The notes under the pieces are model-generated. The model searched no databases and was not told the origin of the DNA. It saw only the letters and a list, made by a program, of their open reading frames with translations. A DNA stretch of 13,754 bases from Thermoflexales bacterium. GTDB lineage: Bacteria; Chloroflexota; Anaerolineae; S140-20. This document shows, piece after piece, positions 31-13,710 of this stretch; the stretch's first letter is position 1, and every line of letters starts with the position of its first letter. Where the stretch lies: assembly GCA_015484715.1 (NCBI GenBank), contig WFUY01000073.1:1-13754 (forward strand). Reading direction: 5' to 3'. The position numbers were made by a program, and so were the translations under genes.

Positions 31-1206
31 ATGGAGAGCTCGGAGGTCCGCCACCTCATTGACCAAGGTGAAGGGCCAACGGTCGAGTTCAAAGAGGACT
101 TCACGACGGCCATCGTCCGGGAGATCGTCGCCTTCGCCAACGGCAGCGGCGGGGTGATCCTCGTCGGTGTGGCAGACGATGGAACCCCGGTGGGCGTGGA
201 CGATCCCCGTCGGATCGCCGACCGGGTGATGGGCCTCTGCCGCACCGGCATCAAGCCGGCCCTGACACCCCAGACCGAGGTCGTCACCGGCGAGGGAAAA
301 ACGCTCCTCCTCATCCGCGTGCCGGAGGGAACCCAGAAGCCCTACACGGCCAACGACATCTGCTACGTGCGGGCCGGCGCCACGACCCGGCGTGCCCGAC
401 CCGATGAACTCCGACGCCCGAGTCTGGAGAGCAGCTACACCGAGTACGAGCGCACGCCGGTGGCCGAATCCAGCCTGGAGGACCTGAACCTGGCCCGACT
501 CCAAGCATACATCGAACGGCGTGCACCGGGGGCGATTCAGATCAACGGCCTGCGCCCCTCGGACGTAGCCGTGAGTTGGGGGTTGGCCCGGCGGGAGGCC
601 GGGCGCGTGGTCCCCACCGTGGCCGGCCTTATCCTGTTCGGGTTGGACCCACAGCGAGAGCGCCCCCAATGGGGGCTGGGCGCTGTACGGATCCACGGCA
701 CCGAGTTAACGGATCCCATCGTAGACCGGGCGGACCTGGAGGGCACGGCAGACCGGATCATCGAGCAGGCCCTGGCCTTCGTGCGACGCAACATGCGCGT
801 CGCGGCCCTCTTCGAGGAGGATGCATCGGCCCGCCGACGTGACCTGCCGGAGTATCCCCTGGGAGCCGTCCGGGAGGTGTTGACCAACGCCGTGGCTCAT
901 CGGGATTACAGCAGCACCGGGCGCATCCTGTTGCGCATCTTCACCGACCGGCTGGAGGTCACCAACCCAGGGGGGCTTCCGCCCGACCTGACGCTGGAGG
1001 AGATCACCCAACGGGGCGGGGCCTCCTACCCCCGCAATCCGATCATCGCCCGGGTGCTCAGGGAGTGGGGCTATGAAGTGGGTCGAGGCCTGATCCGCAT
1101 CCGCCGGGAGATGGAGGCGTTGGGGTCCGCACCGCCCCGCTTCGACGCGAACCGGGTGCGCTTCACCGTAGTGCTGCCTTCTCGCCACCGCAAGGGGAGC
1201 TTCTGA
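31..1206 (+). CDS. AlbA_2/Schlafen-like ATP-binding protein (RecG C-terminal-like family)
   Basis: This 391-aa protein has the two-part layout of the AlbA_2 plus HATPase_c_4 family, often annotated as putative transcriptional regulator or RecG-like C-terminal protein. Residues about 12-130 match the AlbA_2 (Schlafen-type, nucleic-acid- or nucleotide-binding) domain: a TVEFKEDF start, then a [17 protein letters not shown] strand-turn and a Y-V-R-x-G-A-T segment. Residues 281-293 ([13 protein letters not shown]) are the GHKL-type N-box with Asn and His, followed by a [11 protein letters not shown]-box region, so ATP binding is likely. The reading frame stays open to the window edge, but the ATG at 31 follows a GGGAG and begins just before the domain, so it is the best start. 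The stop overlaps the pstB start by one base, so the two are co-transcribed. Its physiological role is unknown; a regulator of the phosphate genes is only an inference from position. Confidence 0.82.
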
Positions 1207-1976
1207 TGCGAGGAATGTCCATCGAGAACCTCAGCGCCGGGTTCGGCGGGTTCACTGCCATCCGCGACATCACCCTCACCATCGTGCCCAACAAGGTCAC
1301 CGCCATCATCGGCCCCTCGGGGTCGGGCAAGTCCACCCTCCTGCGCTGCCTGAACCGGATGCACGAGGAAGTGCGGGGGGCCTGGATGCGCGGGCGGGTG
1401 CTCCTGGACGGAGAGGACATCGACGCCCCGGAGGTGGACCCGGTGCAGGTCCGACGCCGGGTGGGGATGGTCTTTCAGCGCCCCAACCCCTTCCCCACGA
1501 TGTCCATCTTCGACAACGTGGCGGCGGGGCTGCGGCTCGGCCACTGGGGGCGTGTGCCCGACCTGGAGGAGCGGGTGGAACGCTCCCTGCGCCAGGCGGC
1601 CCTCTGGGACGAGGTCAAGGACAAGCTGCACGAGCCGGGCACCGCCCTCTCCGGCGGTCAGCAGCAACGGCTTTGCATCGCCCGGGCCCTGGCCGTGGAG
1701 CCGGAGGTCCTCCTGATGGATGAGCCGGCCTCCGCCCTGGACCCCATCGCCACCCTGCGCATCGAGGACCTGATGCGGGAGCTGGCCCAGACCTACACCA
1801 TCATCGTCGTGACCCACAACATGCAGCAGGCCGCCCGGGTCTCCGACTACACCGCCTTCCTGATGATGGGCGAGGACCGGGCCGGCGTCCTGGTCGAGTA
1901 CGGGCCGACCGAGCAGATCTTCACCAACCCCAAGGACAAGCGTACCGAGGACTACATCACGGGGAGGTTCGGATGA
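1206..1976 (+). CDS. pstB: Phosphate ABC transporter ATP-binding protein PstB
   Basis: This is the cytoplasmic ATPase subunit of the high-affinity phosphate importer PstSCAB. The protein is 256 aa, normal for PstB. Walker A is GPSGSGKST at residues 36-44, followed by the PstB-typical LRCLNRM. The Q-loop region reads [12 protein letters not shown], a hallmark that separates PstB from other ABC ATPases. The ABC signature is LSGGQQQR, Walker B is [13 protein letters not shown], and the switch His lies in THNMQQA. The start at 1206 has AAGGGGAG 5-6 nt upstream and overlaps the preceding stop codon (TGATG). An in-frame ATG at 1215 is a less well-spaced alternative. The stop overlaps the arsC start. 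PstS, PstC and PstA are not in the window and would have to lie upstream or elsewhere. Confidence 0.93.
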
Positions 1977-2431
1977 GCCGCAAGCGGCGTGTGCTCTTCC
2001 TCTGCACCGGCAACTCGGCCCGGAGCCAGATGGCCGAGGGGCTGGTCAACCACTTCCGAGGCGACCGGTGGGAGGCCTACTCGGCGGGCACGAAACCGGC
2101 CGGCTACGTCCATCCCCTGGCCATACGGGCGATGGCCGAGCTGGGGGTGGAGATCGGCACCCAGCGCTCCAAGTCGGTGGACGAGTTCCGGGATGCCCAG
2201 TTCGACCTGGTCATCACCGTCTGCGACGACGCCGACCGGAACTGCCCCGTCTGGCTGGGGCGCGGCCGGCGGGTGCACATCGGCTTCCCGGACCCGGCAG
2301 CGGCGACGGGCAGCGAGACCCAGCGGCTGGCCGTCTTCCGAGAGGTGCGGGATGGTCTGCGCCGGCGCATCCTGAGCTACTTGGATCGGTTCGAGCGCTC
2401 TGCGGGAGAGGAGGGGATGGATGATCCGTAA
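1973..2431 (+). CDS. arsC: Thioredoxin-coupled arsenate reductase (LMW-phosphatase fold)
   Basis: This 152-aa protein reduces arsenate to arsenite in the cytoplasm with electrons from thioredoxin. The active-site loop CTGNSARS (residues 11-18) is the C-X5-R phosphatase-type anion loop. Two further cysteines, C84 and C91 in [13 protein letters not shown], match the second and third members of the redox triad of the Staphylococcus pI258-type ArsC (Cys10, Cys82, Cys89), so this is a reductase rather than a plain tyrosine phosphatase. A FPDPAA segment holds the conserved general-acid region. The ATG lies inside an ATGA overlap with pstB, and GGGGAGG sits 5 nt upstream. The 3' end overlaps phoU by 11 nt. 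Placement between pstB and phoU fits detoxification of arsenate taken up with phosphate. No arsenite pump or ArsR is visible nearby. Confidence 0.9.
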
Positions 2432-3092
2432 AGCTTTCGAGCAGGACCTGCAGCGGTTGCAGGAAGAGGTGTTGGTCCTAGGGAGCATGGTCGAAGAGGC
2501 GCTGACCGCCTCGGTGGACAGCCTCAAGCGGCGGGATATGGAGGCCTCGCGCCGGATCATCGCCAACGATCGGCAAATTAATGAAAAGCGCTTCGCCCTG
2601 GAGGCCCAGGCGCTAACCTTGATCGCCACCCAACAGCCGATGGCCAGCGACCTGCGCACTCTGGCGGCGGTGTTGGAGATCGTCACCGAACTGGAACGGA
2701 TGGGCGACTACGCGAAGGGCATCGCCAAGATCAACCTGATGATCGGGGACGAGCCGTTGATCAAGCCGCTCATTGACATTCCCCGGATGGCGGAGAAGGC
2801 GCGGGATATGCTGCACCGGGCGTTGGAGGCGTTTATCCGGCGGGACGTGGAGTTGGCCCAGGCCATTCCCGAAGAGGATGACGAGGTGGATGCCCTCTAC
2901 AACCAGGTCTATCGGGAGCTGATGACCTTCATCATGGCCGACCCCCACACCATCGAACAGGCCAACTATCTCCTGTGGGCGGCTCACAACCTGGAGCGCA
3001 CCGCCGACCGGGTGACCAACATCTGTGAACGGGTGATCTTCACCGTCACGGGCGAGATGATCGAGATGGACGTGGACGAGGAAGAGGTTTGA
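2421..3092 (+). CDS. phoU: Phosphate signalling/transport accessory protein PhoU
   Basis: PhoU is a cytoplasmic helical-bundle protein that restrains Pst transport and links it to PhoR-type signalling. This 223-aa protein has the usual two repeated three-helix PhoU domains. Each ends in the metal-binding signature: ELERMGDYA at about residues 90-98, and LERTADRVTNICERV at about 190-204. The N-terminus (F-x-x-x-L-x-x-L, then V-x-x-M-V-E-x-A-L) is typical. The ATG at 2421 is preceded by GAGGAGGGG and overlaps the end of arsC, so translation is probably coupled. The acidic tail (residues 217-223) is rich in Asp and Glu. It is the last gene of the phosphate/arsenate unit, and a promoter for the next unit overlaps its stop codon. 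Confidence 0.93.
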   Translation: MIRKAFEQDLQRLQEEVLVLGSMVEEALTASVDSLKRRDMEASRRIIANDRQINEKRFALEAQALTLIATQQPMASDLRTLAAVLEIVTELERMGDYAKGIAKINLMIGDEPLIKPLIDIPRMAEKARDMLHRALEAFIRRDVELAQAIPEEDDEVDALYNQVYRELMTFIMADPHTIEQANYLLWAAHNLERTADRVTNICERVIFTVTGEMIEMDVDEEEV

Positions 3093-3117
3093 CCGAACCA
3101 TAACCTTGGAGTATAAT
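3089..3117 (+). promoter_or_regulatory. Consensus sigma-70 promoter for the ATPase cassette
   Basis: The -35 box TTGACC (3089-3094, 5 of 6 bases of consensus) and the -10 box TATAAT (3112-3117, 6 of 6) are separated by exactly 17 bp. The -35 box overlaps the phoU TGA stop. Transcription would start near 3124, giving a leader of about 210 nt before the ATG at 3335. Confidence 0.8.
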
Positions 3118-3334: not shown

Positions 3335-3610
3335 ATGACCGAAGAGAAGCTCAGCCTCTGGGAACGGGCCAAACGATCCGTTCAAGACCTCATCTACGGC
3401 ATGGCAGCACACGAGATGACCCGCCAGGCCCTGAAGACGCGGGGAAGTATGGAACATCTTTTCATCCTCATCACGATGGGCGACCTGCTAGGTGTGCCCA
3501 TCCTGCCGCCCTACTACTCCCTGCGTCTGCTCCCCTACGTGGTGCCCCAGATCGCCACCTGGAAACGGCGCATGCTGCGCGAGAAAGACTTGACCGACGC
3601 TCTGGCTTAG
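3335..3610 (+). CDS. Conserved small protein A (unknown function, paralogue of the 7091 gene)
   Basis: This is a 91-aa protein of unknown function. The frame is open from 3128, but ATG 3335 is chosen because AAGGAGGG lies 10 nt upstream and because similarity to the second copy (7091-7396) begins just inside it. Residues 1-37 form a charged, probably helical segment (W-E-R-A-K, then LIYGM). Residues 40-88 form the conserved core, with GDLLGVPILPPYYSLRLLPY (49-68) identical in both copies. The core is hydrophobic and proline-rich and ends in a basic W-K-R-R-M-L-R-E segment followed by DLTD. It could be a membrane-embedded hairpin, a surface-bound amphipathic element or a protein-binding motif; it does not look like a classic single transmembrane helix. 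It is the first gene of the unit, 51 nt before the ATPase genes, which suggests a partner or client role. No known name is assigned. Confidence 0.82.
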   Translation: MTEEKLSLWERAKRSVQDLIYGMAAHEMTRQALKTRGSMEHLFILITMGDLLGVPILPPYYSLRLLPYVVPQIATWKRRMLREKDLTDALA

Positions 3611-3661
3611 TCCCGCCTGGACCCCCATTCTTGAGACAAGCCATCAAACGAGGAGCAAGCA

Positions 3662-4645
3662 ATGTCGCTCAAGCGCATTTTCGAGGAAAACCCTGAACGA
3701 CGCTACATTATGTTTGGCGGTAAGGGAGGGCTGGGCAAGACGACCTTCTCCGCCGCCACGGCCTACTACCTGGCTCAACAGGGCCATAAAGTGCTGGTCT
3801 TCTCCGTGGACCCCCAGGCTTCGCTCTCTGACATCTTCGAGCGGGACATCTACGGCAAGGGGGCCGTTGAAATCATCCCTAATCTCTTCGCTCAGGAGAT
3901 TGATGCCGACCAGCGGATCCGAGAGTACCAGGAGGAAATCCGCCAGAAGATCCGCGATATGTACGGGATGGACGAGATTCCCGATGAGATCGAAAGCTAC
4001 ATCCGGGCTGCGGCGGCAGAGCCCGCGATGGAGGAGAGCGCCATCTTCGATCAGGTCGTGGACATCGTGGTGGCCGGCGAGTACGACTACTACATCTACG
4101 ACCTGGTCCCGCTGGGCCACGCCCTCTACTACCTGAGCATGGCCAGTGTCTACGACGAATGGATCACCAAGATCACAGCCTTGCGTGAGGAGATGCGGGA
4201 ATACGAGGAGATGGCAGCCCGCTACGCCCGGGACAAGGAGCTCCAAGAGGACCTGATCCTCAAAGAACTCCAGTACATCAAGCACCGCATCAACACCTCC
4301 TCCAGCATCTTGACCGATCGGGAACGGACAGCTTTCTTCTTCGTCCTGGTGCCCGAGGAGATGATCTTGATAGATACGCAAAAGGCCGCAGGGCTCTTCG
4401 CCAAGTATCAGGTGCCCCTCAGCGGCTACATCGTCAACCGGGTGCTACCCGACTCCCTGATGCAGCAGCCCAATATTCCGGCCTACCTGCGCAACCGGTA
4501 CGAGATGCAACAGAAGTACCTCGCCGAGATCAAGCGGCTCTTTGGGGATCAGGTGCTGGCCTACATCCCCGAGTTCGAGCGGGATGTGACCGGCCTGCCG
4601 ATGATCGAGCGGATGGCCGAGGTCATGTTTGGGAACGGAGCGTGA
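3662..4645 (+). CDS. Get3/ArsA-like ATPase 1 (cysteine-free)
   Basis: This 327-aa protein belongs to the Get3/ArsA branch of deviant Walker A P-loop ATPases. The P-loop is GGKGGLGKTT (19-28) with signature Lys21 and P-loop Lys26. Switch I is SVDPQASLSD (48-57) and keeps the catalytic Asp (D50). Switch II is DLVPLGHA (147-154), where family members normally read DTAPTGHT: the GH is kept but the Thr-Ala-Pro-Thr part is altered. An EPAMEES element (120-126) precedes switch II, and a charged helical insert spans roughly 165-215. The base-recognition region reads VNRVLPD. The protein contains no cysteine, so the ArsA metalloid site and the Get3 CxxC zinc motif are both absent. The start has GAGGAG upstream. 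Three nucleotides separate it from ATPase 2. Arsenite transport is unlikely; protein targeting or an unknown chaperone-like role is inference. Confidence 0.9.
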   Translation: MSLKRIFEENPERRYIMFGGKGGLGKTTFSAATAYYLAQQGHKVLVFSVDPQASLSDIFERDIYGKGAVEIIPNLFAQEIDADQRIREYQEEIRQKIRDMYGMDEIPDEIESYIRAAAAEPAMEESAIFDQVVDIVVAGEYDYYIYDLVPLGHALYYLSMASVYDEWITKITALREEMREYEEMAARYARDKELQEDLILKELQYIKHRINTSSSILTDRERTAFFFVLVPEEMILIDTQKAAGLFAKYQVPLSGYIVNRVLPDSLMQQPNIPAYLRNRYEMQQKYLAEIKRLFGDQVLAYIPEFERDVTGLPMIERMAEVMFGNGA

Positions 4646-4648
4646 ACG

Positions 4649-5629
4649 ATGCGCATCGAGAAGACCCTCTCCCAATTCCTGGATGAACATCCCCGGTTGA
4701 AGTACACCTTCTTCGGCGGCAAGGGGGGCGTGGGCAAGACGGTGATGGCCGGTGCAGCGGCCGTTGGCTTCGCCCGCCGAGGCCGGCGCACCCTCCTCGC
4801 CTCCACCAACCCGGTCCATAGCCTGAGTGGCATGCTGGAGCAGGACGTCTTTGGCGCCCCCACACCTGTGGAAGGCGTCCCCAACCTCTGGGCTTACGAA
4901 ATTGACACCCGGGAGACCATTGAGAAGTCCAAACAGGAGATCCGGGAGAAGATTGACTGGTTCCTCAAGTTCGCCGAGATCCGCACCAAGGCTGACGAAT
5001 TCATCGAGTCGGCCACAATGAACCCGGCCTTCGAGGAATCGGCAATGTTCGAGAACATGATTGACATCATGTTCAAGGACGAGTATGACGTCTATGTCTT
5101 CGACACCGCGCCTACCGCCAACGCCCGTCGTCTGTTGGGGATGTCCTCCGTCTATTCCCTTTGGGTCAACAAGATGATGCAGAGCCGGGAGGAGGCCCGC
5201 AGCCTACGGGAGATGCTTTCCTACAGCAAGAAAAAAGAAGAGAAGGACCCGCTGATGGAGTACCTCCTCAACTTCCGAGAGCGCATGCAGCATGCCAAGG
5301 AACTGCTGACCGACCCAGAACTGACGGCCTTCTTCTTCGTCACGCTGCCGGAGGCCCTGCCCATCGCCGTCATCCGCCGCTTCATCAACTGGTTCCACGA
5401 CTTCGGCATCCCCGTGGGCGGGGTGGTCGTCAACATGGTCATTGACAAAGAGAGGATCGGAGCCGATGCGGCGGAGTTCGTGCTGAACCGAGTGGCGATG
5501 CAAGACGAGTACATGGAGGTCATCGAGCAGGAGTTCGACGGTCTGGTTCGCAGCATCGTCCCCCTCTTCGACACCGAGGTGAAGGGGGTGCCGATGCTCA
5601 TTGAGACCGCCGAGCGGATGTTCGCCTAG
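4649..5629 (+). CDS. Get3/ArsA-like ATPase 2 with Asp-to-Asn switch I
   Basis: This 326-aa relative of ATPase 1 has P-loop GGKGGVGKTV (23-32), with signature Lys25, Lys30 and Mg-site Thr31 intact but the following Thr replaced by Val. Switch I reads STNPVHSLSG (52-61): the family's STDP Asp is Asn54 (AAC at 4808-4810), and the later LSD Asp is Gly61. Switch II is DTAPTANA (152-159), with a normal start but GHT replaced by ANA. It shares with ATPase 1 the NPAFEES element, the acidic EYDxYxxD approach to switch II, a charged helical insert and the TAFFFV strand. It has no cysteine. GGAG lies 8 nt before the ATG, and the preceding stop is 3 nt away, so the two are co-translated. It probably binds ATP but hydrolyses it poorly or not at all. 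A heterodimer with ATPase 1 is inference. Confidence 0.9.
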   Translation: MRIEKTLSQFLDEHPRLKYTFFGGKGGVGKTVMAGAAAVGFARRGRRTLLASTNPVHSLSGMLEQDVFGAPTPVEGVPNLWAYEIDTRETIEKSKQEIREKIDWFLKFAEIRTKADEFIESATMNPAFEESAMFENMIDIMFKDEYDVYVFDTAPTANARRLLGMSSVYSLWVNKMMQSREEARSLREMLSYSKKKEEKDPLMEYLLNFRERMQHAKELLTDPELTAFFFVTLPEALPIAVIRRFINWFHDFGIPVGGVVVNMVIDKERIGADAAEFVLNRVAMQDEYMEVIEQEFDGLVRSIVPLFDTEVKGVPMLIETAERMFA

Positions 5630-5714
5630 CGAACCAAGCCGTCCACCGGATTGAATGGGTCGGATCAAACAGCCGATCGTTGCTGAGGGGCAGGGTGGTA
5701 GCAGGAGGTCTGTG

Positions 5715-5751
5715 GCCGTCGGGGGATAACGCTCCCCGGCGGTCGCCTTTT
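5715..5751 (+). terminator. Possible terminator after ATPase 2
   Basis: GCCGTCGGGG (5715-5724) can pair over ten positions, two of them G-U, with CCCCGGCGGT (5734-5743). A TTTT run (5748-5751) follows four bases later. The T run is short and set back, so termination may be partial, with read-through into the 5788 gene. Confidence 0.45.
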
Positions 5752-5787
5752 AGAGTTCATCGGAACGTCCGTTCAAAGGAGACCAAT

Positions 5788-6279
5788 GTGCAGCCGACCG
5801 ATCTGGTGCGCCACGACATCGCAGCCAGCAACCTGCTGTTAGGCGATTCCCTATTCCTCTCGCTCGGCTTACCGCCGGGCTGGGAGTTGGCCCCCGGAGT
5901 AGGGCGACCGGAGGTCATCGCCAACCACGAGCGAGGGGGCAAGAAGTGGGTCGCCTCAGGCCGGGCCTGGTATGTGGTCTTCGATGCCGAGCGCCGCTGG
6001 GCGATGGAATTGATGCTGCAGGTGGGGGCATTGTCCCGGCGATGGAACCGGGCTCCGGTCGGGGAGGTGGCCGAGGTCACCGTCCATGGCCATCCAGCCA
6101 CAGTGCGCTGGCGAGAGGGGCGACGGGGGCTCTTCCGGCGCCACACCATCACCTTCCTGCGGGTGGAGTTCGACTGTCCGGTGAGCGAGCGACACCTGGT
6201 GGTGGAGTTCAGCGGGCGATGTCCCCGGGAGGGGTTCGAGGAGATGCTGGCGGCGATCCCCTACCTGCGCTGTCACTAG
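5788..6279 (+). CDS. Unknown 163-aa cytosolic protein with Cys/His-rich C-terminal half
   Basis: I do not recognise this protein. GTG 5788 is the likely start: AAAGGAG lies 6 nt upstream, while the longer frame from 5680 runs through a hairpin and has a random-looking N-terminus. There is no signal peptide or membrane helix. The mix of Trp and short alternating hydrophobic strands (WYVVF, AEVTVHGHPATVRW, HTITFLRVEFDC, HLVVEFSG) suggests a mainly beta or alpha/beta fold. Three cysteines (130, 145, 162) and five histidines (100, 102, 119, 136, 163) fall in the last 64 residues, and the chain ends in Cys-His. This could be a metal site, but no standard zinc motif is formed. It follows the ATPase pair on the same strand after a possible partial terminator, so it may be part of the same functional unit. 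Confidence 0.72.
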   Translation: MQPTDLVRHDIAASNLLLGDSLFLSLGLPPGWELAPGVGRPEVIANHERGGKKWVASGRAWYVVFDAERRWAMELMLQVGALSRRWNRAPVGEVAEVTVHGHPATVRWREGRRGLFRRHTITFLRVEFDCPVSERHLVVEFSGRCPREGFEEMLAAIPYLRCH

Positions 6280-6354
6280 TCCGATTGCGCCCAGTCCTGG
6301 GGAGCGGCCCTGAAAGGACCTCCTTCACTTTTGGCTTTGGGGAGGGACCGAGGA

Positions 6355-7011
6355 CTACAAACTACCCTGACGGGGATGGGTGAGGGCTGTGCGCAGGGCG
6401 CTGAAGAGATCGCTGGCCGGGCGCTCGGTCAGCCCGGACAGGCGTAGGTGGAGCAAGAGGTGGGGCTTGCTACGCCGCCAGGAGAGACGGTAGAGAGAGG
6501 TGCCATAATCCTGGAGAAAGGCTCCGATGGCCTGGCTGAGGGCTTTCCCCTGGGAGCCCCGGCGGGCAATGCGGAGCCCGTGGGGGCCTTCCTCCCACTC
6601 CCAGGGAGGCTGCTCTTCGCGCCGCAGCGAGCGCTCCAACCGGCTGCCGGCCGGAACCACTTCGATCTCTCCTCGGCGAGAGGAGCGAAGCTGGGCCCTG
6701 ATGATCAGTTCATCCCGCCGGCCTCGCAGCCGGTTGATCGCCCAGAGGGGGAGGATCTCCCGCGACTCCAGCAGGAAGATAGCCTCTAGGTGGCGGAAGG
6801 GCGGGTTGGCCTTGCTGACCATCGCCTTGGCTCCCGAAGCGGCGGAACCGATCCACACCATCTCTAGCCGACCCCCTAGCCGCTGGAGGCCCTCGCGCAG
6901 CCAGGTCAGCGTGCGGATGCCACGACGGCGGTTATACCAGGTCCCCCCAACGTACCAGAGGGCCATCAGGATGGCGATGGCCCAGATGACGCGCTGAGCA
7001 GCGAGGGACAT
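6355..7011 (-). CDS. Unknown single-pass membrane protein (218 aa)
   Basis: I do not recognise this protein. Residues about 8-25 (start VIWAIAIL) form one N-terminal membrane helix, followed by a basic NRRRG stretch, so by the positive-inside rule the N-terminus is outside and the rest cytoplasmic. The soluble part has a GGRLEMVWIGSAASGAKAM segment, then an LEAIFLLESREILPLWAINRLRGRRDEL block and a long basic and Trp-rich tail. It has no cysteine and no nucleotide-binding motif. On the minus strand GAGG lies close before the ATG. It is convergent with the 5788 gene and divergent from the second small protein, with only 79 nt between the two starts. It lies between the two small-protein paralogues, which hints at a shared role, but nothing in its sequence proves this. 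Confidence 0.72.
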   Translation of the reverse strand: MSLAAQRVIWAIAILMALWYVGGTWYNRRRGIRTLTWLREGLQRLGGRLEMVWIGSAASGAKAMVSKANPPFRHLEAIFLLESREILPLWAINRLRGRRDELIIRAQLRSSRRGEIEVVPAGSRLERSLRREEQPPWEWEEGPHGLRIARRGSQGKALSQAIGAFLQDYGTSLYRLSWRRSKPHLLLHLRLSGLTERPASDLFSALRTALTHPRQGSL

Positions 7012-7090
7012 CTTCTACCTCATACCCACCAATTCGTCACACTCACGATCTACTGTGCACCGGGTCCACTAGGGCGGAAAGGAGTTCGCG

Positions 7091-7396
7091 ATGACCACAA
7101 CTCCGGCAGGCCGCATCAACCGCTGGCGAGAGCGGGCCAGAGCCGTTGGGGAGTGGGTGGCCGGCTTCATCTATGGGATGACGGTGTTCGAAATCGTCCG
7201 CCACTTCCGCCGTCAACGGGCGGACCTGGAGCACCTCTTCGTCCTCATCAGCTTCGGCGATTTGCTGGGCGTGCCCATTCTCCCCCCCTACTACAGCCTC
7301 CGCCTGCTCCCTTACATCGTCCCCCTGATTCAGAAGTGGAAGTACCGGATGCTGCGGGAGCGGGACTTAACCGACCTGGCGGCCGATCTGGGGTAA
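7091..7396 (+). CDS. Conserved small protein B (unknown function, paralogue of the 3335 gene)
   Basis: This 101-aa protein is the second copy of the small protein at 3335-3610. Its core (residues 47-95) matches residues 40-88 of copy A at 40 of 49 positions, including GDLLGVPILPPYYSLRLLPY in full. Upstream both have a W-x-E-R-A-R/K element and an IYGM motif; copy B has about seven extra N-terminal residues. AAAGGAG lies 7 nt before the ATG. The pattern of strict identity over a proline-rich hydrophobic core with diverged N-termini suggests a common binding surface and different partners. It is transcribed away from the 6355-7011 membrane protein and converges on livF. Function unknown; not a recent duplication, given the diverged DNA and ends. 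Confidence 0.85.
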   Translation: MTTTPAGRINRWRERARAVGEWVAGFIYGMTVFEIVRHFRRQRADLEHLFVLISFGDLLGVPILPPYYSLRLLPYIVPLIQKWKYRMLRERDLTDLAADLG

Positions 7397-7461: not shown

Positions 7462-8172
7462 TCAGATCCCGCCCAAGTAGGCCCTGCGCACGTCGGGATT
7501 CTCCCGCAGTTCCTTGGCGCTACCCTCCAGCACCACCTCTCCCGTCTCCAGCACGTAACCCCGATGGGCCACGCTCAGGGCCATCAAAGCGTTCTGCTCC
7601 ACCAGCAGGATGGTCACCCCCTCCTCGCTGTTCAACTGCTGAATGGTCTCGAAGATCTCCTCCACCAGGAGAGGGGCCAGCCCCATGCTGGGCTCATCCA
7701 GCAACAGGACCCGGGGCTTGCCCATCAGGGCCCTTCCAATGGCCAGCATCTGCTGCTCGCCTCCCGAGAGGGTGCCGCCCAACTGATTGCGTCGCTCGGC
7801 CAGCCGGGGGAAGAGGTCGAAGACCCGTTCCATATCCAGACGGATGCCCTCTTTGTCGGTGCGGGTGTAGGCCGCGATCTCCAGGTTCTCCATCACCGTC
7901 ATCCGGGCAAAGATGCGGCGACCTTCGGGGGCCTGGACGACTCCCCGCTTGACGATCTCGTGGGGAGGGAGGTCGGTGATCTCCTCCCCCTCCAGCAAAA
8001 CCCGCCCCTCCCGGGGCTTGAGCAGCCCGGAGATGGTGTTCAACGTGGTCGTCTTGCCAGCCCCATTGGCTCCGATTAACGTGACGATCTCCCCTTCGTC
8101 CACGGTGAGGGAGATCCCTCGCAGGGCATGGATGTTACCATAATAGGTGTGCAGGTTTTGTACTTCCAGCAT
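7462..8172 (-). CDS. livF: Branched-chain amino acid ABC transporter ATP-binding protein LivF
   Basis: This is the second cytoplasmic ATPase of the LIV-type (HAAT) importer. It is 236 aa, standard length. Walker A is GANGAGKTT (34-42), the Q-loop region reads VVQAPEGRRIF as in LivF, the ABC signature is LSGGEQQ (134-140), and Walker B is VLLLDEPSMGLAP (from 154). The switch His is replaced by Gln in LVEQNA, as is normal for LivF. The ribosome binding site is weak (purine-rich GAGAAGAAG). Unlike the other liv junctions, a gap of 141 nt separates it from livG. It is the last gene of the operon. Confidence 0.94.
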   Translation of the reverse strand: MLEVQNLHTYYGNIHALRGISLTVDEGEIVTLIGANGAGKTTTLNTISGLLKPREGRVLLEGEEITDLPPHEIVKRGVVQAPEGRRIFARMTVMENLEIAAYTRTDKEGIRLDMERVFDLFPRLAERRNQLGGTLSGGEQQMLAIGRALMGKPRVLLLDEPSMGLAPLLVEEIFETIQQLNSEEGVTILLVEQNALMALSVAHRGYVLETGEVVLEGSAKELRENPDVRRAYLGGI

Positions 8173-8313
8173 CGTCTTCTTCTCGCAGGAGGTATCAGGG
8201 GGAACGCCAGATCGCAGGCAGGCCCGCGATACCGTGACTCCCCAGACCTTCGGTCGGATGGACAGACGTCAGAGAAAGCGCCGGAGCACAGGAGGCTCCC
8301 CCCAAAAAAGCGG
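8173..8313 (-). other. livG-livF intergenic region with inverted repeats
   Basis: This is the only sizeable gap inside the livHMGF block apart from livK-livH. It holds GGTATC (8191-8196) against GATACC (8228-8233), an overlapping ATCGC/GCGAT pair that would compete with it, and a GGAGC/GCTCC hairpin just after livG. No convincing promoter boxes were found. It may be an RNA-processing site or simply a spacer. Confidence 0.35.
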
Positions 8314-9099
8314 TCAGACGGCCTGGAGGGCTGTGGCTGCCCCTGTCCCCAGATAAGCCTCGATCACCCGAGGATCACGCTGCACCTCGGCCGGCGTCCC
8401 TTCTGAGATCTTCCGACCGTAGTCCAGCACCGTCACCACATCGGAGATGCCCATCACCACACGCATATCGTGCTCGATGAGCACGATGGTCAGTCCCAGC
8501 TCATCGCGCAGACGCCGGATGAACTGCATCGTCTCCTGGGTCTCGGCGATGTTCATCCCCGCCGTAGGCTCATCTAGAAGCAAGAGCTTCGGCTTGGTCG
8601 CCAGAGCTCGGGCGATCTCCAGGCGGCGCTGCTCACCGTAGGGCAGGTTCTTGGCCAGGAACTCCTCCCGTCCCAAAAGGCCCACGAAGCGGAGCAACTG
8701 GCGGGCCTCCTCCAGAGCCTGTTCCTCCTCGTCGCGCATCCGGGGCGTCTTGAAGATAGCGTCGAAGATGGTCGAACGCAGGTGCAGGTGCATCCCGACC
8801 AGGACGTTCTCCAGAACCGTCATATTGGCAAAGAGCCGGATGTTCTGGTAGGTCCGGGCGATCCCCAGCCTCGTCACGTGGTCGGGAGAGAGGAAGTGAA
8901 TAGGACGACCTTCGAAGAGGATCTCTCCCTCATCGAGACGGTAAAACCCCGTCACACAGTTGAAGAAAGTGGTCTTGCCGGCTCCATTGGGGCCGATAAT
9001 GCTGTGGATGGAGCGCTCCTGCACATCCAGGTCCAGGCTGTCCACAGCGACCAGCCCGCCGAAGCGCTTGGTGGCATTGTGGGCTTCCAGAATTCCCAT
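8314..9099 (-). CDS. livG: Branched-chain amino acid ABC transporter ATP-binding protein LivG
   Basis: This is the first ATPase of the LIV-type importer, 261 aa as usual. Walker A is GPNGAGKTT (36-44), and the Q-loop segment reads ARTYQNIRLFANMTVLENV, characteristic of LivG. The signature is the degenerate LPYGEQRRLEIARAL typical of this subfamily in place of LSGGQ. Walker B is LLLLDEPTAGMN, and the switch His is in IEHDM. GGAGGCGAGGA directly precedes the ATG. It starts 10 nt after the livM stop, so it is co-translated with it. Confidence 0.94.
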   Translation of the reverse strand: MGILEAHNATKRFGGLVAVDSLDLDVQERSIHSIIGPNGAGKTTFFNCVTGFYRLDEGEILFEGRPIHFLSPDHVTRLGIARTYQNIRLFANMTVLENVLVGMHLHLRSTIFDAIFKTPRMRDEEEQALEEARQLLRFVGLLGREEFLAKNLPYGEQRRLEIARALATKPKLLLLDEPTAGMNIAETQETMQFIRRLRDELGLTIVLIEHDMRVVMGISDVVTVLDYGRKISEGTPAEVQRDPRVIEAYLGTGAATALQAV

Positions 9100-9109
9100 T
9101 CCTCGCCTC

Positions 9110-10837
9110 CTATTCGCTGGCTACCGTGGCGGCGGGCGCTTTTTTGGGGGAAGGTTCCGGCACAGGTTCCCGGGATTCCTCTTGCCTGAGGGCCCGCACG
9201 TGGGTGGCCTCCGGCCACAGCCCTTCCGGCTTGTAGAGCATCATCACTACCATCGCAGCCCCGTAGACCAGCATCCGGTACTCGGCGAACTCCCGCAGCA
9301 GTTCCGGCAGCCCCATCAGGGCGAAGGCCCCGACGACCACGCCGGGCAGGCTTCCCATGCCGCCGACGATGATGAGACTGAGGACGTAGATGGAGATGAG
9401 TAGGTTGAAGCTATGGGGGGCCATCGAGTTGATCTTGGAGGCGAAGATCGCCCCACTCAGGCCGGAGAGGGCAGCGCCAGTGGCGAAGGCCAGCAGCTTC
9501 GTGGTGACCAGGTTGATCCCCATCGCCTCGGCAACATCCTCATCCTCACGGATGGCCATCCAGGCCCGCCCTAGGCGGGATGCCTTCAGGCGGATAGAGA
9601 TGAAGAGAGCAATCAAACAGCCGATCAGGATCAGGTAGTAGAAGTGGGGTGGGTCTTTGATCACGATCCTCCCGATGATGGGGCCCTCAATGACGGGCCG
9701 GGCAATGCGGGTTAGCCCCTGGGCCCCCCCCAGGATCGGCTTGAGGAAGTCGGAGAGGACCAGAATTCGGATGATCTCGCCGAACCCCATTGTGACGATA
9801 GCCAGGTAGTCCCCCCGCATCTTCAGCACCGGCACACCCAAGATAACGCCAGCAGCGATAGAAGCCAGGATGGATAGGGGTAGGGCTTCCCAGAAGGTCA
9901 AGTTGAAGAAGCCCAGCTCCGTCGAGGTCAACACGGCCATGGTATAGGCACCAATGGCGAAGAAAGCCACGTACCCCAGGTCTAGCATCCCGGCGAACCC
10001 CACCACGATGTTCAGCCCCAGCCCCATCAGAATGTAGAGGCCCACCGTGTCCAGCACCTCGCTCATATAGGAGCCCACGATCCGAGGCAGCACAAGCAAG
10101 AAGAGGAGCACAAAGGTCCAGACCGCGATCTGGACCGTCATCGGCCGGCGCTGTTGGAGCTGTCGGTGCTCCTCCCGCAACCTACGGCCATACTGATGCC
10201 AGAGGGCCGCCAGGACAATCGTGACTATGAAGATGAGCAGAGCACCGACCGGCTTGAATCCCGAGCGGGCGAAGAAGAACTTGATGATCTTCCCTCGGAA
10301 GATGGGCAGGGTGGAGATAATGTCCTGGAGCAGCCCAACGATGAGGGTGACCAGGAAGCCGGTCGTTAGGGGACCTCGGATCAGCAAGGGGATCAAGGGG
10401 AAAAGGGTGCCGATCAGCCCGCTGACGACACTGAAGAGGAAAAGCAGCAGAGCCCCCGTGCGCTCCCCCCGGCTAAAGGTCAGGACCTCGATCAGCGCAG
10501 GGGAGGCGTTGGGGAAGATGCTCCGCAAGTCCCAGGGCTTGGGGATCAACGCCTTGGTCAGAAAAACGAGTACCACCAGGACAATGCCGCTGACCCCTCC
10601 GATGACGATGCCGCTGATCGTCGCATTCAGGGGAGAAGGGGACTTCTGACGGCGCTCAAAGAGGTAAGCTGCGATCAGGATGGAGAGGAAGAGCAACACA
10701 TGCCCCACGGAGACGGCCTCGCCGATGAGCCCCCGTTTGCTGAACGCCTCTACCATCCCTGTCAGGGCCAAAAGCAAGGGAACCGTGCTGCTGATCAGGG
10801 CTGTGCGAAAGAGTTGAGAGGGCTGAAGATCGCGCAT
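9110..10837 (-). CDS. livM: Branched-chain amino acid ABC transporter permease LivM, N-terminally extended
   Basis: This is a membrane permease of the LIV-type importer. The C-terminal part from about residue 265 is canonical LivM: GLGLNIVVGFAGMLDLGYVAFFAIGAY, then the ATPase-contact loop RGDYLAIVTMGFGEIIRIL (341-359). At 575 aa it is much longer than common forms (about 300-425 aa). Residues 1 to about 235 add a hydrophobic region with perhaps five or six membrane segments (about 13-30, 45-60, 72-96, 126-150, 156-172, 196-213), followed by a charged RRLREEHRQLQQRR linker. The ATG at 10837 has GGAG 7 nt upstream; the internal Met233, at the start of the canonical part, has no ribosome binding site, so the long form is favoured. 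The C-terminal tail is a Pro/Glu/Lys-rich cytoplasmic stretch. It lies 14 nt after livH. Confidence 0.9.
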   Translation of the reverse strand: MRDLQPSQLFRTALISSTVPLLLALTGMVEAFSKRGLIGEAVSVGHVLLFLSILIAAYLFERRQKSPSPLNATISGIVIGGVSGIVLVVLVFLTKALIPKPWDLRSIFPNASPALIEVLTFSRGERTGALLLFLFSVVSGLIGTLFPLIPLLIRGPLTTGFLVTLIVGLLQDIISTLPIFRGKIIKFFFARSGFKPVGALLIFIVTIVLAALWHQYGRRLREEHRQLQQRRPMTVQIAVWTFVLLFLLVLPRIVGSYMSEVLDTVGLYILMGLGLNIVVGFAGMLDLGYVAFFAIGAYTMAVLTSTELGFFNLTFWEALPLSILASIAAGVILGVPVLKMRGDYLAIVTMGFGEIIRILVLSDFLKPILGGAQGLTRIARPVIEGPIIGRIVIKDPPHFYYLILIGCLIALFISIRLKASRLGRAWMAIREDEDVAEAMGINLVTTKLLAFATGAALSGLSGAIFASKINSMAPHSFNLLISIYVLSLIIVGGMGSLPGVVVGAFALMGLPELLREFAEYRMLVYGAAMVVMMLYKPEGLWPEATHVRALRQEESREPVPEPSPKKAPAATVASE

Positions 10838-10851
10838 CGCATCGCTCCGTT

Positions 10852-11913
10852 TCAGGCTCGCTTGGTGGCCAGCCGCTCACCCAGGATCCCCGTCGGTCGG
10901 AAGATAAGCACCATCACCAGCATCGTGAAGGCGATCACGTCCTTCAGCTGGTAGGGGGCGGGGATGCCCAGACCGTCAAGGAAGAGGTTGGGACCAATGG
11001 ACTCGAAGATGCCCAGAAACATCCCGCCCAGCATCGCGCCGGGCACGTTGCCGATCCCACCCAATACAGCGGCAGTGAAGGCTTTGATGCCGGGCACGAA
11101 CCCCATCAGGAAAAAGACCTGTTTGAAGAGCAGGGCGTAGAGAAGTCCTCCGGCACCAGCCATCAGGCCGCCCAGGGCGAAGGAGACTGCGATCGTCCGA
11201 TCCACGTCAATCCCCATCAGCGCGGCAGCCGCCCTGTCTTCAGCTACAGCCCGGACCGCCTTTCCCATTTTCGTGCGCTGGATGAAGGTGTAGAGCCCGG
11301 CCATCAGCAGCACCGCCGCGATGATCACCACCAACTGGGTCTTCAAGATCTGGACCCCCAGGATGGGCACCTTGCCGCTCAGAATATCCCAGTCGGGATA
11401 GACCTTGACGTCGGCGCCAAAGAGCCCGCGAAAGAGGTATTGGAGGAAGAAGGAAGCCCCGATGGCAGTGATGAGGGGGACCAGGCGAGGCGCGCCCCGC
11501 AAGGGACGATAGGCCACCCGTTCCAGCAGAACGGCTATTGTCGTGGAGGTGATCATAGCCACTGCTAGAACGATGAGCAGACTGAGGATCGGCTGGCGGT
11601 CTACGAACCCGCTACGTGCCATGCGGATGGCGAAGAAATACCCGATCATCGGCCCGCTCATAAAGATCTCGCCGTGGGCGAAGTTGATCATCCCTAGGAT
11701 ACCGTAGACCATCGTGTACCCCAGAGCGATGAGGGCGTAGATCCCCCCTTGGGCCAACCCGAAGACGATGAAGTCCAACCACTGTTTGCTGGTATACTTC
11801 CCCACCGCGAGGGTGCGGACAGAGCCGATGAGCACCATAGCGAGGAGCCCTCCGCCAATAAGCCAGAGGGCAATCTGAGTACCCGTTAATTCCATTCTCA
11901 GGCGTTGCTGCAT
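10852..11913 (-). CDS. livH: Branched-chain amino acid ABC transporter permease LivH
   Basis: This is the partner permease to LivM. The hallmark stretch GGIYALIALGYTMVYGILGM, then INFAHGEIFM, begins near residue 56, and the ATPase-contact region KMGKAVRAVAEDRAAAALMGID is present. The protein is 353 aa, with about 45 residues before the canonical start, including one extra membrane segment (about 14-31). AGGAG lies 8 nt before the ATG at 11913; an in-frame ATG at 11895 (MELTG) is possible but has no clear site. A long inverted repeat lies upstream, between livK and this gene, so livH may be expressed below livK. Confidence 0.93.
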   Translation of the reverse strand: MQQRLRMELTGTQIALWLIGGGLLAMVLIGSVRTLAVGKYTSKQWLDFIVFGLAQGGIYALIALGYTMVYGILGMINFAHGEIFMSGPMIGYFFAIRMARSGFVDRQPILSLLIVLAVAMITSTTIAVLLERVAYRPLRGAPRLVPLITAIGASFFLQYLFRGLFGADVKVYPDWDILSGKVPILGVQILKTQLVVIIAAVLLMAGLYTFIQRTKMGKAVRAVAEDRAAAALMGIDVDRTIAVSFALGGLMAGAGGLLYALLFKQVFFLMGFVPGIKAFTAAVLGGIGNVPGAMLGGMFLGIFESIGPNLFLDGLGIPAPYQLKDVIAFTMLVMVLIFRPTGILGERLATKRA

Positions 11914-11962
11914 AGTAGTCTCCTACCCTGTTCGAGGAGGTGGTCACGTCACAGGACAGGTG

Positions 11963-11998
11963 AACCTTCCCGGGGGCTTGGAAGCCCCCGGGAAGGTT
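11963..11998 (-). repeat. Long perfect inverted repeat between livK and livH
   Basis: AACCTTCCCGGGGGCTT (11963-11979) is followed, after GG, by its exact 17-nt reverse complement (11982-11998). The RNA would form an extremely stable hairpin of about 15 bp or more with a small loop. It lies 36 nt after the livK stop and about 50 nt before the livH start. No T run follows on the livK strand, so it is more likely a 3' RNA-stabilising or attenuating element than a full terminator. Such hairpins commonly keep the message of a binding protein more abundant than that of the permease genes. Confidence 0.75.
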
Positions 11999-12034
11999 GA
12001 AGTCAGCAGACCAAGGCCGCGCACTGCCAGGAGG

Positions 12035-13351
12035 CTACTTCCCACCCTTGGTGTAGACGACGGGGGGCGGCCAACCACCAGCCACGACCTCCTCCGTGAT
12101 CTGGAAGACACCCAGCGCCTCGCCGGTGGCGCAGTCGCCCGTCTCCGTGCAGGAGAGCGTCCCCGTCAGCCCCTTGAAGCCCTTGGTGGCGTAGAGGGCA
12201 TCCCGCAGCGCCTGGCGCGGAATGTGCAGCGTCCCATCCGCCTCCTGCACCGCCACCTTCTTGATCGCCTCAAAGAGCATCATCGTCGCATCGTAGGCGT
12301 GGGCGTGGAAGGCGCTGGGCGGAGGACCACCGTACTTGGCCTCGTGCTTCTTCAGGAACTCGTCGTAGGCCGCGCCAGCAACGTAGGGTCCACTCAAGTA
12401 CATCCCCACCGCCGCGTCGCCAGCCGCCTCCACAAAGTCGGGCGTGAACATCCCGTCCGCACCCATCAGGATCACGTCCTCCAGGCCGCTCACCTCCTTG
12501 GCCTGCCGGGTGATGAACCCACCCTCGGCCACGAAGATGGGATAGTAGATCAACTCCGGCCCGGTAGCCGCAATCCGCGTCAGCACAGGGCGCATATCGG
12601 TGTCACCCACGTTCACCGCCTCCTGGGCGGTGATCTCCCCACCCAACTCCTGGAAGCGCTTGGCGAAGACGTTCGCCAACTGCTCGGCGTAGACACTCCC
12701 GTCGTGGATGGTCGCCGCCTTGCGCACCCCCAACTCGTTGTAGGCGAACTCAGCCGCCAGAGCCCCCTGGAAGAGATCGTTGTGGGCCGTGCGCAGATAG
12801 CCCGGCGAGTGGGTCTCCGGATCAGTCAGGTAGGGTGCCGTGTTGGAGGGCGAGATCATCACCATCCCAGCGTCGCTGATGACGGGAGCCGCCACCTTCG
12901 CCGCGCTGGAGCAGTTGGTGCCGATCACCCCGATGATGCTCTCGTCCGCCGCGATCTTCTGAGCCGCCGCCTGACCACCCTCCGGACTGCACAGCGAGTC
13001 CTCGCCTACCAGCTCGATGGGATGCCCCAGCAACTCACCACCCACATCGTCTATGGCGATCTCGATGCCGTTCCGGGAGTCCTCACCCAGCGAGGCGTTA
13101 GGACCGGAAACCACCAGCATGTAGGCGATCCGGATCGGATCCCCAGGCGCGATGTCCACACAGCCTAAGGGATCCGTGCACTCGAACTCCGCCACAGGGG
13201 GCTTGGTCGGTTCGGGTGCCTTGGTCGGCTCAGGTGCCTTGGTGGCCTCGGGAGCCTTGGTGGCCGTGGGCTGGGCTCCACCACCACAGGCCGTCAGGAC
13301 CAATGAGAAGACCGTCAGCAAGGTCAGCAGGCCAAACGTGAACTTTCTCAT
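12035..13351 (-). CDS. livK: Branched-chain amino acid ABC transporter substrate-binding lipoprotein LivK-like
   Basis: This is the extracytoplasmic binding protein of the importer, a periplasmic-binding type 1 (Peripla_BP_6) fold. The frame is open from 13399, but ATG 13351 is preferred: AGGAGG lies 8 nt upstream, and the product then starts with a clean lipoprotein signal (MRKFTFGLL, lipobox LTAC, lipidated Cys22). From this start it is 438 aa. Residues about 23-50 form a linker of TKAPE-type repeats. The mature domain starts with CTDPLGC, whose cysteines may form a disulphide, then PIRIAYMLVVSGPNASLGED, the usual first strand and ligand loop. Later landmarks are GVIGTNCSSAA and YAEQLANVFAKRFQELGG. 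The substrate is probably Leu/Ile/Val, but amides or other amino acids are possible, as this family is broad. Confidence 0.9.
   Translation of the reverse strand: MRKFTFGLLTLLTVFSLVLTACGGGAQPTATKAPEATKAPEPTKAPEPTKPPVAEFECTDPLGCVDIAPGDPIRIAYMLVVSGPNASLGEDSRNGIEIAIDDVGGELLGHPIELVGEDSLCSPEGGQAAAQKIAADESIIGVIGTNCSSAAKVAAPVISDAGMVMISPSNTAPYLTDPETHSPGYLRTAHNDLFQGALAAEFAYNELGVRKAATIHDGSVYAEQLANVFAKRFQELGGEITAQEAVNVGDTDMRPVLTRIAATGPELIYYPIFVAEGGFITRQAKEVSGLEDVILMGADGMFTPDFVEAAGDAAVGMYLSGPYVAGAAYDEFLKKHEAKYGGPPPSAFHAHAYDATMMLFEAIKKVAVQEADGTLHIPRQALRDALYATKGFKGLTGTLSCTETGDCATGEALGVFQITEEVVAGGWPPPVVYTKGGK
13202..13265 (-). repeat. Tandem 18-bp repeats encoding the LivK linker
   Basis: About three and a half imperfect copies of an 18-bp unit encode the repeated Thr-Lys-Ala-Pro-Glu-Pro/Ala hexads of the LivK linker. 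In-frame units like this can gain or lose copies by slippage, changing the tether length between membrane anchor and binding domain without breaking the frame. Confidence 0.75.
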
Positions 13352-13710
13352 CTCCATCTCCTCCTTTGTGGTCCAACGGAAGTGATCTGCAAGGGCCATC
13401 CGAAAGATCGAAGATCACCTCATCGGATCTTCAGGCGGCCAACTAGCTGGAGAGAGACCGGTCGGTCCGCCCATCTTTCGGACAGGCGCTCACGGCAAGA
13501 GGGTGATCCTATCTAGAGCCTATCACCTCCTTTCAACGGTCAAATCGGTTGGGGGACGATAGTAACCTGCCCTCCAGAGGAAGGGCAGAAGGAAGGGGTG
13601 GCGTCAGCAGTGGAGAGGAGGAATGACTTTCCGGCTGGTCTCATAGCTGCCATCGGGATTGTGCAAATCGCTATGGTGAATGGTCACCAGCCTGGACAAA
13701 TAGCTGACGT
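13352..13710 (-). promoter_or_regulatory. Long structured 5' leader of the liv operon
   Basis: No gene is supported in this stretch of about 350 nt, which is untranslated leader downstream of the promoter at 13711-13739. From the 5' end it holds four structures. First is a nested hairpin at 13633-13692: GGCTGGT/ACCAGCC outside, CATAGC/GCTATG and GATT/AATC inside. Second is a hairpin at 13567-13588 (CTGCCCT/AGGGCAG). Third is a GGTGAT/ATCACC pair at 13502-13507 and 13522-13527. Fourth is a perfect 10-bp pair, 13399-13408 with 13473-13482, enclosing GAAGATC/GATCTTC (13410-13416, 13426-13432). A GTCCG/CGGAC hairpin would compete with the 10-bp pair. This fits a cis-regulatory RNA, class unknown. 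Confidence 0.5.

Follow-up and report, generated by a model that had tools for sequence, protein, structure and literature searches.

A conserved bacterial gene block with an asymmetric pair of Get3/ArsA-type ATPases and two small proteins, a candidate ATPase module of CstA-family carriers

The stretch of DNA analysed here (the window) is the 13,754-nucleotide contig WFUY01000073.1 of a Thermoflexales bacterium, part of a draft genome of 3.0 Mb in 588 contigs that is 70.6% complete; the closest relatives of its genes are found in the Anaerolineae (Chloroflexota). The subject of this analysis is a block of six genes within about 4 kb, considered below as a candidate ATPase module of a CstA-family carrier complex. 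The block opens with S-A (3335..3610, plus strand), a small protein of 91 residues of the cory-CC-star/CstX-like type, whose ATG is preceded by AAGGAGGG and which is the ‘prox’ paralogue, adjoining ATPase 1. ATPase 1 (3662..4645, plus strand, 327 residues) and ATPase 2 (4649..5629, plus strand, 326 residues) follow; both belong to the Get3/ArsA family and neither contains cysteine. Switch I reads SVDPQASLSD in ATPase 1, with a catalytic-type Asp, and STNPVHSLSG in ATPase 2, where Asn replaces the Asp; the switch II sequences are YDLVPLGHALYYL and FDTAPTANARRLL, respectively. Downstream lies orf4, the ‘Cys/His protein’ of a preliminary description of this DNA (about 5788..6279, plus strand, approximately 163 residues), which ends in Cys-His-stop and whose GTG start was picked for the AAGGAG that precedes it. 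The opposite strand carries orf5 (6355..7011, minus strand, 218 residues), with one N-terminal hydrophobic helix and an α/β domain of predicted CCDC47-like fold; divergent from it is S-B (7091..7396, plus strand, 101 residues), the second cory-CC-star/CstX-like paralogue (‘dist’). All six genes of the preliminary description are present where it had placed them.

Both ATPases are full-length: they match Pfam ArsA_ATPase with 246 bits (ATPase 1) and 225 bits (ATPase 2), exceed the cut-off of TIGR00345 (GET3/ArsA/TRC40) and are 36% identical to each other. The best match in the PDB is 3ug6 for both (222 and 187 bits), with 3zq6 next, both of which we take to be archaeal Get3 structures, and then the ARSA1 protein 5zme. 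The alignments with 3ug6 and 3zq6 place the switch I residue that differs between the two ATPases at Asp57 of Get3 in the yeast numbering; the catalytic Asp is kept in ATPase 1 (Asp50) and is Asn in ATPase 2 (Asn54). Asp57 of Get3 is essential for hydrolysis, and the D57N substitution serves as a trap for the ATP state (PMC12506534).

This asymmetry is invariant among the relatives. The switch I residue is Asp in 59 of 59 aligned ATPase 1 sequences and Asn in 55 of 55 aligned ATPase 2 sequences; with the divergent subtype described below included, the readable gene features give Asp in 70/70 and Asn in 66/66, counts that hold fragments and repeats and from which seven features without a readable P-loop were dropped. 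Switch II is DLVPLGHALYYL in 58 of the 59 ATPase 1 sequences and DTAPTANARRLL in 54 of the 55 ATPase 2 sequences (one position varying in two), the remaining one being gapped. Relatives that occur as single ATPases carry Asp at switch I, both in the mapped loci (7/7) and on plasmids (3/3). In a quick tree of 48 of the 133 ATPase sequences, which gave long-branch warnings, ATPase 1 and ATPase 2 of both subtypes form two groups with Shimodaira-Hasegawa-like approximate likelihood ratio test (SH-aLRT) values of 98 and 99, and six single ATPases are set apart (SH-aLRT 97). Since each of the two groups holds both subtypes, the pair and its asymmetry seem to be older than the split between the subtypes. 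The CxxC zinc site, which in Get3 joins the two subunits at the dimer interface, is absent from all 59 ATPase 1 and all 55 ATPase 2 sequences. In the stretch corresponding to the client-binding region, the mean Kyte-Doolittle hydropathy is -0.64 for ATPase 2 and -0.66 for ATPase 1, compared with -0.60 for 3ug6 and -0.53 for 3zq6, and the methionine content is 8.3% and 4.6%, compared with 14.1% and 9.7%; these figures come from 31 ATPase 2 and 21 ATPase 1 sequences parsed by pattern out of the 133, with no single-ATPase row among them.

The small proteins score against the NCBIfam model NF041419 (cory-CC-star) with E values of 5e-9 (36 bits, S-A) and 1.9e-8 (34 bits, S-B), where the model's cut-off is 80; judged by these scores, they are relatives rather than equivalogs of that family. 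A search with S-B returned 6111 homologues among 5.8 billion proteins, with PF25952 on all 120 of those listed. A C-terminal Cys-Cys, which in our own reading of the name ‘cory-CC-star’ would be the hallmark of the family, is found in neither S-A nor S-B; it occurs in 5 of 160 S sequences, all from single-ATPase loci. S-A and S-B are 56% identical over 91 columns, and the preliminary description took them for two copies of one small conserved protein. They are indeed related, but are not alike copies: in a tree of 82 rows and few columns, one group (SH-aLRT 95) gathers 27 of the 34 ‘dist’ rows and one row with a wrong label, but not a single one of the 34 ‘prox’ rows, which by sequence places S-A and S-B in two old paralogue groups. 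The ‘single’ label of that tree (14 rows) includes seven truncated pairs. S-B is predicted as two long helices, in an S model of low predicted template modelling score (pTM, 0.39), with which Foldseek gave zero matches up to an E value of 10.

The orf4 protein gave no match in a Pfam scan. Its Cys-His-stop ending, an unusual C-terminus to be conserved, is shared by 19 of 20 family members from the mapped loci, L058 being the exception. The predicted fold of orf5 matches eukaryotic CCDC47, a translocon and PAT complex component, in having one membrane helix and a cytosolic α/β fold. The match spans residues 135-401 of the CCDC47 chain only, at 13% identity, and the luminal domain and C-terminal coiled coil of CCDC47 are both absent from orf5. 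A search for the orf5 family scored 805 hits, and a profile of it (A3) found no translocon chain up to an E value of 10, so that the likeness to CCDC47 of the PAT complex and of the multipass and SND3 translocons comes without a sequence-profile match. CCDC47 is part of the multipass translocon (PMC9630114, PMC7505659), and PMC9630114 states that prokaryotes lack PAT components.

Relatives of S were found at 438 encoding places (one genome per species), of which the best 80 gave 79 loci. Both ATPases lie within 5 kb of S in 57 of the 79, one ATPase in five and none in 17. Where the contig leaves at least 5 kb on either side of S (29 loci), both ATPases are present in 28 and none in one (L026). 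Moreover, all 17 genomes of the loci without a nearby ATPase have a relative of ATPase 2 (74-80% identical) at another place, and in 16 of them an ATPase 1-like gene is near it. The clustering of S with the ATPases far exceeds chance. The preliminary description would have had to be given up if the small protein occurred mostly without these ATPases; the counts of 57/79, and of 28/29 where there is room, are the opposite outcome. These and the following counts hold repeats, in that some genomes appear both among the loci L011-L089 and in the genome (G) sets, and some loci share one genome. By the titles of their records, the loci come from Chloroflexi, Methylomirabilota, Rokubacteria, Deltaproteobacteria, Latescibacterota, Bacillota and others, and the gene block is confirmed as real and conserved across phyla. 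Two titles deserve a remark: L061 is titled ‘Acetobacteraceae’ and L062 ‘Aneurinibacillus’, yet both genomes fall in one phylum sample, so at least one of the titles is likely to be wrong.

A frequent order, obtained by profile mapping, is cstA, a thiol protein, S, ATPase 1, ATPase 2, orf4, orf5 (on the opposite strand) and a second S, and a short-chain dehydrogenase often follows the distal S. In many mapped loci both S genes stand ahead of ATPase 1 and orf4 was not found. A divergent paired subtype (L152, L153, L155, L156, L159), with switch I sequences STDPQASL and SLNPVHSL, keeps the parts in altered order, including orf4, orf5 and the second S. The preliminary description is supported in one part by the locus counts: genetically, the ATPase pair has conserved partners in the small proteins and in the membrane protein with its single pass. 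A third, more distant type of CstA-S-ATPase locus, with a single ATPase (SVDPAHNL or SIDPAHNL), was observed in L150 and L151; its S has neither the Cys-Cys ending nor PPYY. A family of tetratricopeptide repeat proteins with an N-terminal hydrophobic stretch is encoded close to the block in 15 of 98 mapped sequences, one match being weak (for example L049, 10519-11385 for the family).

The member of the set that the preliminary description missed is CstA, the gene for which lies on another contig in the window genome. A gene of about 590 residues, belonging to one cluster, is present in 53 of the 79 loci on the same strand as an S and usually shortly upstream of it; the three scanned members of this cluster match Pfam CstA. 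In the window genome, cstA is on contig C119 and two thiol-family proteins follow it in tandem (L092, 2212-3067), the first with CxxC and the second without; such a combination recurs in L012, L022, L025 and L047. Within the phylum, 33 of 251 genomes, the window's included, are S-positive, defined as a match to NF041419 at E ≤0.001; none of the 251 reaches the model's own cut-off. CstA is encoded in 31 of the 33 S-positive genomes and in none of the 20 S-negative ones set against them; for the ATPase 2 group the figures are 32/33 and 0/20 (the ATPase pair was counted likewise), where the 20 are those listed out of 218 negatives and all belong to the window's class, while 23 of the 33 positives come from other classes. 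Within that class alone, the figures are 10/10 and 0/20 for both CstA and ATPase 2. The Fisher values for the co-occurrence, 1e-12 and 1e-13, overstate it because the genomes are not independent. The misses fall in incomplete or fragmented assemblies: for CstA, G273 (73% complete, 370 contigs) and G504 (89%, 680 contigs), and for ATPase 2, G408 (88%, 600 contigs), in which the start of ATPase 1 runs off a contig end. S and CstA co-occur even where they lie far apart on one contig (G479) or on separate contigs (G463 and the window genome). A search of plasmids with S-B gave no match, and one with a single-ATPase S gave six plasmids; in RefSeq, plasmids of Paracoccus, Cytobacillus and Pseudochrobactrum carry ‘carbon starvation protein A’, ‘cory-CC-star protein’ and ‘ArsA family ATPase’ together, with one hypothetical gene intervening in the Cytobacillus run.

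The number of S copies tends to follow the number of ATPases. At least two S copies are encoded in 30 of the 33 S-positive genomes of the phylum, and one copy in 6/6 genomes with a single-ATPase locus of the Cys-Cys type, a comparison for which the stretch read was 10-12 kb at five of these loci and 3 kb at one, with second ATPases elsewhere in the genomes unsought. We read the S pair and the ATPase pair, from their sequences, as the outcome of a duplication of ATPase and adaptor that would give a heterodimer with two adaptors.

Taken together, the likeliest context for the block is a CstA complex that is either driven or assembled by ATP, and we put at even chances the reading that this block provides a carrier complex of the CstA family with its ATPase module, in a paired-ATPase variant of the cstA-cstX-arsA systems discussed below. 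In this mechanism, ATPase 1 and ATPase 2 would form an obligate heterodimer, which would bind two ATP molecules and hydrolyse ATP only at the site of ATPase 1, with ATPase 2 holding its ATP. S-A and S-B would fold as hairpins, with a hydrophobic turn inserted at the membrane beside CstA and the helices docked on the ATPase subunits, so joining the ATPases to the carrier. Binding and hydrolysis of ATP would then drive or gate the movement of the CstA substrate, as ArsA does for ArsB; orf5 would act as an accessory subunit anchored in the membrane, and the thiol protein whose gene often lies beside cstA may be a redox accessory. For E. coli CstA the substrate is pyruvate (or peptides). Powering or gating is the best supported role, on the strength of the tie to one carrier, the asymmetric pair and the precedent of ArsA and ArsB (PMC2963123).

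Several observations weigh against this. We found no biochemical evidence of ATP-driven transport by CstA, E. coli CstA works with YbdD, and six of the seven CstA-bearing control genomes have no S-family match. The block of the window is itself unlinked to cstA. The copy number of S is not strict, with a single S in 3 of the 33 genomes of the phylum and, in the other phylum sample, in two of the eight paired genomes (G018, G020), and with only one S nearby in 13 of the 57 paired loci. With a pTM of 0.39, the hairpin packing of S is something that we infer. Finally, the likeness of the modelled orf5 fold to CCDC47 speaks more for a role in the assembly of membrane proteins.

This last point leads to an alternative that we regard as somewhat unlikely, namely that the block is a dedicated insertase or chaperone module for CstA, in which the ATPase heterodimer, S and orf5 aid insertion or assembly and are dispensable for transport itself. 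The strict tracking of one multi-pass client would fit such a module, as would 3ug6, presumably an archaeal Get3, as the best sequence match of both ATPases in the PDB, and the resemblance of orf5 to CCDC47, a multipass translocon member. The same Get3-like ATPases and CCDC47-like membrane protein could be enlisted for the general membrane-protein targeting or assembly machine of the preliminary description, with the small proteins as its partners or clients; however, the CxxC zinc site is missing in 59/59 and 55/55 ATPases, and the set tracks one carrier family (CstA in 31/33 S-positive against 0/20 S-negative genomes), a tie not expected of a general machine. We therefore do not find that proposal supported and hold it to be very improbable. 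Improbable too, though to a lesser degree, is a regulatory or sensing switch, in which the half-active pair would read the ATP state and toggle CstA without driving transport; one hydrolysis-type and one trap-type switch I would suit a timer, and the CxxC protein often near cstA suggests redox control.

If the preferred reading, an ATPase module that powers or gates CstA, is right, a few genes would suffice to test whether ArsA-type ATPases power carriers beyond the arsenite pumps, and why one site of a Get3-type dimer would have to be dead; the Asp/Asn difference that nature provides lets the tasks of the two ATP sites be told apart with no need for mutants. The resemblance of the predicted orf5 fold to CCDC47 touches on the claimed prokaryotic lack of PAT components (PMC9630114) and hence on the origin of the multipass translocon. 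The block also provides a functional neighbourhood for a large family (the 6111 homologues of S-B) otherwise named ‘cory-CC-star’ or hypothetical. A further claim, that bacteria possess a CstA-dedicated machine in which hairpin adaptors and a prokaryotic equivalent of CCDC47 work with a Get3-type heterodimer of obligate asymmetry, hydrolysing at one site and locked on ATP at the other, we consider rather doubtful; were it true, a GET-like ATPase and a PAT-like subunit would meet outside the eukaryotes in one machine for assembly or pumping, and the ATP-locked site of ATPase 2 would be a natural counterpart of yeast Get3 D57N.

Upstream of S-A, a promoter-like site (TTGACC-N17-TATAAT, 3089..3117, plus strand) overlaps the 3′ end of phoU. 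The preliminary description credited the block with its own consensus promoter; the site is present and matches at 11 of 12 positions, but shuffles of the same region yield 0.7 sites on average, compared with the one found, so that by itself it is not significant. Window positions 1206-3092 hold a pstB-type ATP-binding cassette (ABC) ATPase, read from its open reading frame, an arsenate-reductase-like low-molecular-weight phosphatase (TIGR02691, 126.8 bits, below the cut-off of 174) and phoU, which overlap head to tail; the overlap indicates that the ArsC-like gene lies inside a phosphate operon. Positions 31-1206 encode a protein with Schlafen/AlbA_2 and HATPase_c_4 domains. On the minus strand, positions 7462-13399 hold what appears, read without a family scan, to be a gene cluster for an ABC transporter of branched-chain amino acids, with a lipoprotein binding protein, two permeases and two ATPases; it is convergent with S-B and seems to have no connection with the block.

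Several known systems resemble the block in part. Get3/TRC40 shares with both window ATPases the P-loop and switch motifs and the full domain length, and differs in its CxxC zinc site, which they lack; the window has two different subunits, a D57N-like residue in ATPase 2 and CstA as companion. BagA and BagB (Rv3679/Rv3680, PDB 6bs3) are likewise two different Get3-like ATPases in one operon; they were rejected as the identity of the pair, with 43 and 38 bits for ATPase 1 and 46 and 40 bits for ATPase 2 against NCBIfam cut-offs of 400 and 521. Get3d was also rejected, in view of the length of 326-327 residues, an ArsA_ATPase domain that reaches the C-terminus and no Pfam match to a C-terminal α-crystallin domain. 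In the ArsA-ArsB and ArsA-Acr3 pumps, too, an ATPase of this family is believed to power a secondary carrier, and there are two ATPase units; in ArsA, however, these are fused halves with three metal-site cysteines, whereas the window ATPases are separate genes without Cys. TIGR04291 gives 98 and 105 bits for the window ATPases, with a cut-off of 650, and no arsenite carrier was matched among the nine window proteins scanned, so that an arsenite pump was rejected as well. The claim that the set is distinct from Get and Ars holds on these grounds: no CxxC, no fused ATPase, and no arsenite carrier among those nine proteins.

E. coli CstA requires the small protein YbdD for pyruvate uptake (PMC5847655), a combination of CstA with a small partner that recalls the present one, although the accessible text of that paper names no ATPase for the E. 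coli pair. YbdD ends in RCC-stop, and the small proteins of three single-ATPase plasmid operons also end in RCC. Homology of S with YbdD was rejected: none was detectable, with an hhalign probability of 0.2 against one YbdD, a result that speaks against the reading of the block as the ATPase module of a CstA carrier. The YbdD/YjiX family PF04328 was matched in none of 39 genomes with S by a search that does match E. coli and C. glutamicum; together with the need of E. coli CstA for a small partner, this counts in favour of the same reading. No solved structure of CstA was matched up to an E value of 0.01.

The nearest relatives are the cstA-cstX-arsA systems. Castillo & Saier (2010, PMC2963123) described 26 associations of CstA with ArsA, 24 of them with the small protein CstX, and proposed that the ArsA homologues energise CstA with CstX as a linker. 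Adjacent ArsA pairs were described there in two organisms, Pyrobaculum arsenaticum and Symbiobacterium thermophilum (cluster 15); in their account, the SXD motif permits only N instead of D, and the ATPases are suggested to be possible homodimers. The likeness is close: a single-domain ArsA-type ATPase of about 330 residues, a small protein of about 90 residues and CstA share one operon in those systems, and in the window, too, a small protein of about 90 residues adjoins a single-domain ArsA homologue. The archaeal CstY (about 210 residues, one transmembrane segment), compared by its description, is similar to orf5 in its length and its topology. Judged by its size, its topology and the genes around it, and from the plasmid runs of CstA, cory-CC-star protein and ArsA-family ATPase, S can very probably be equated with CstX. 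Systems of this kind, adjacent ArsA pairs included, had already been predicted from genome context in 2010, so that the block cannot count as an undescribed system. The literature searched, mostly titles and abstracts with few subscription journals and hence a weak basis, reported neither the asymmetric ATPase pair nor a prokaryotic CCDC47-like protein; the invariant Asp/Asn asymmetry, read from the aligned sequences, looks new, as does a partner whose modelled shape is that of a eukaryotic membrane-protein assembly factor. The window thus differs from the described systems in having two diverged ATPases with invariant Asp and Asn, two S paralogues, orf4, orf5 and often a thiol protein, and in a block that is unlinked to cstA in the window genome; what appears to be new relative to 2010 is the invariant, putatively half-dead ATPase pair, the two putative adaptors, the C-terminal Cys-His of orf4 and the CCDC47-like orf5.

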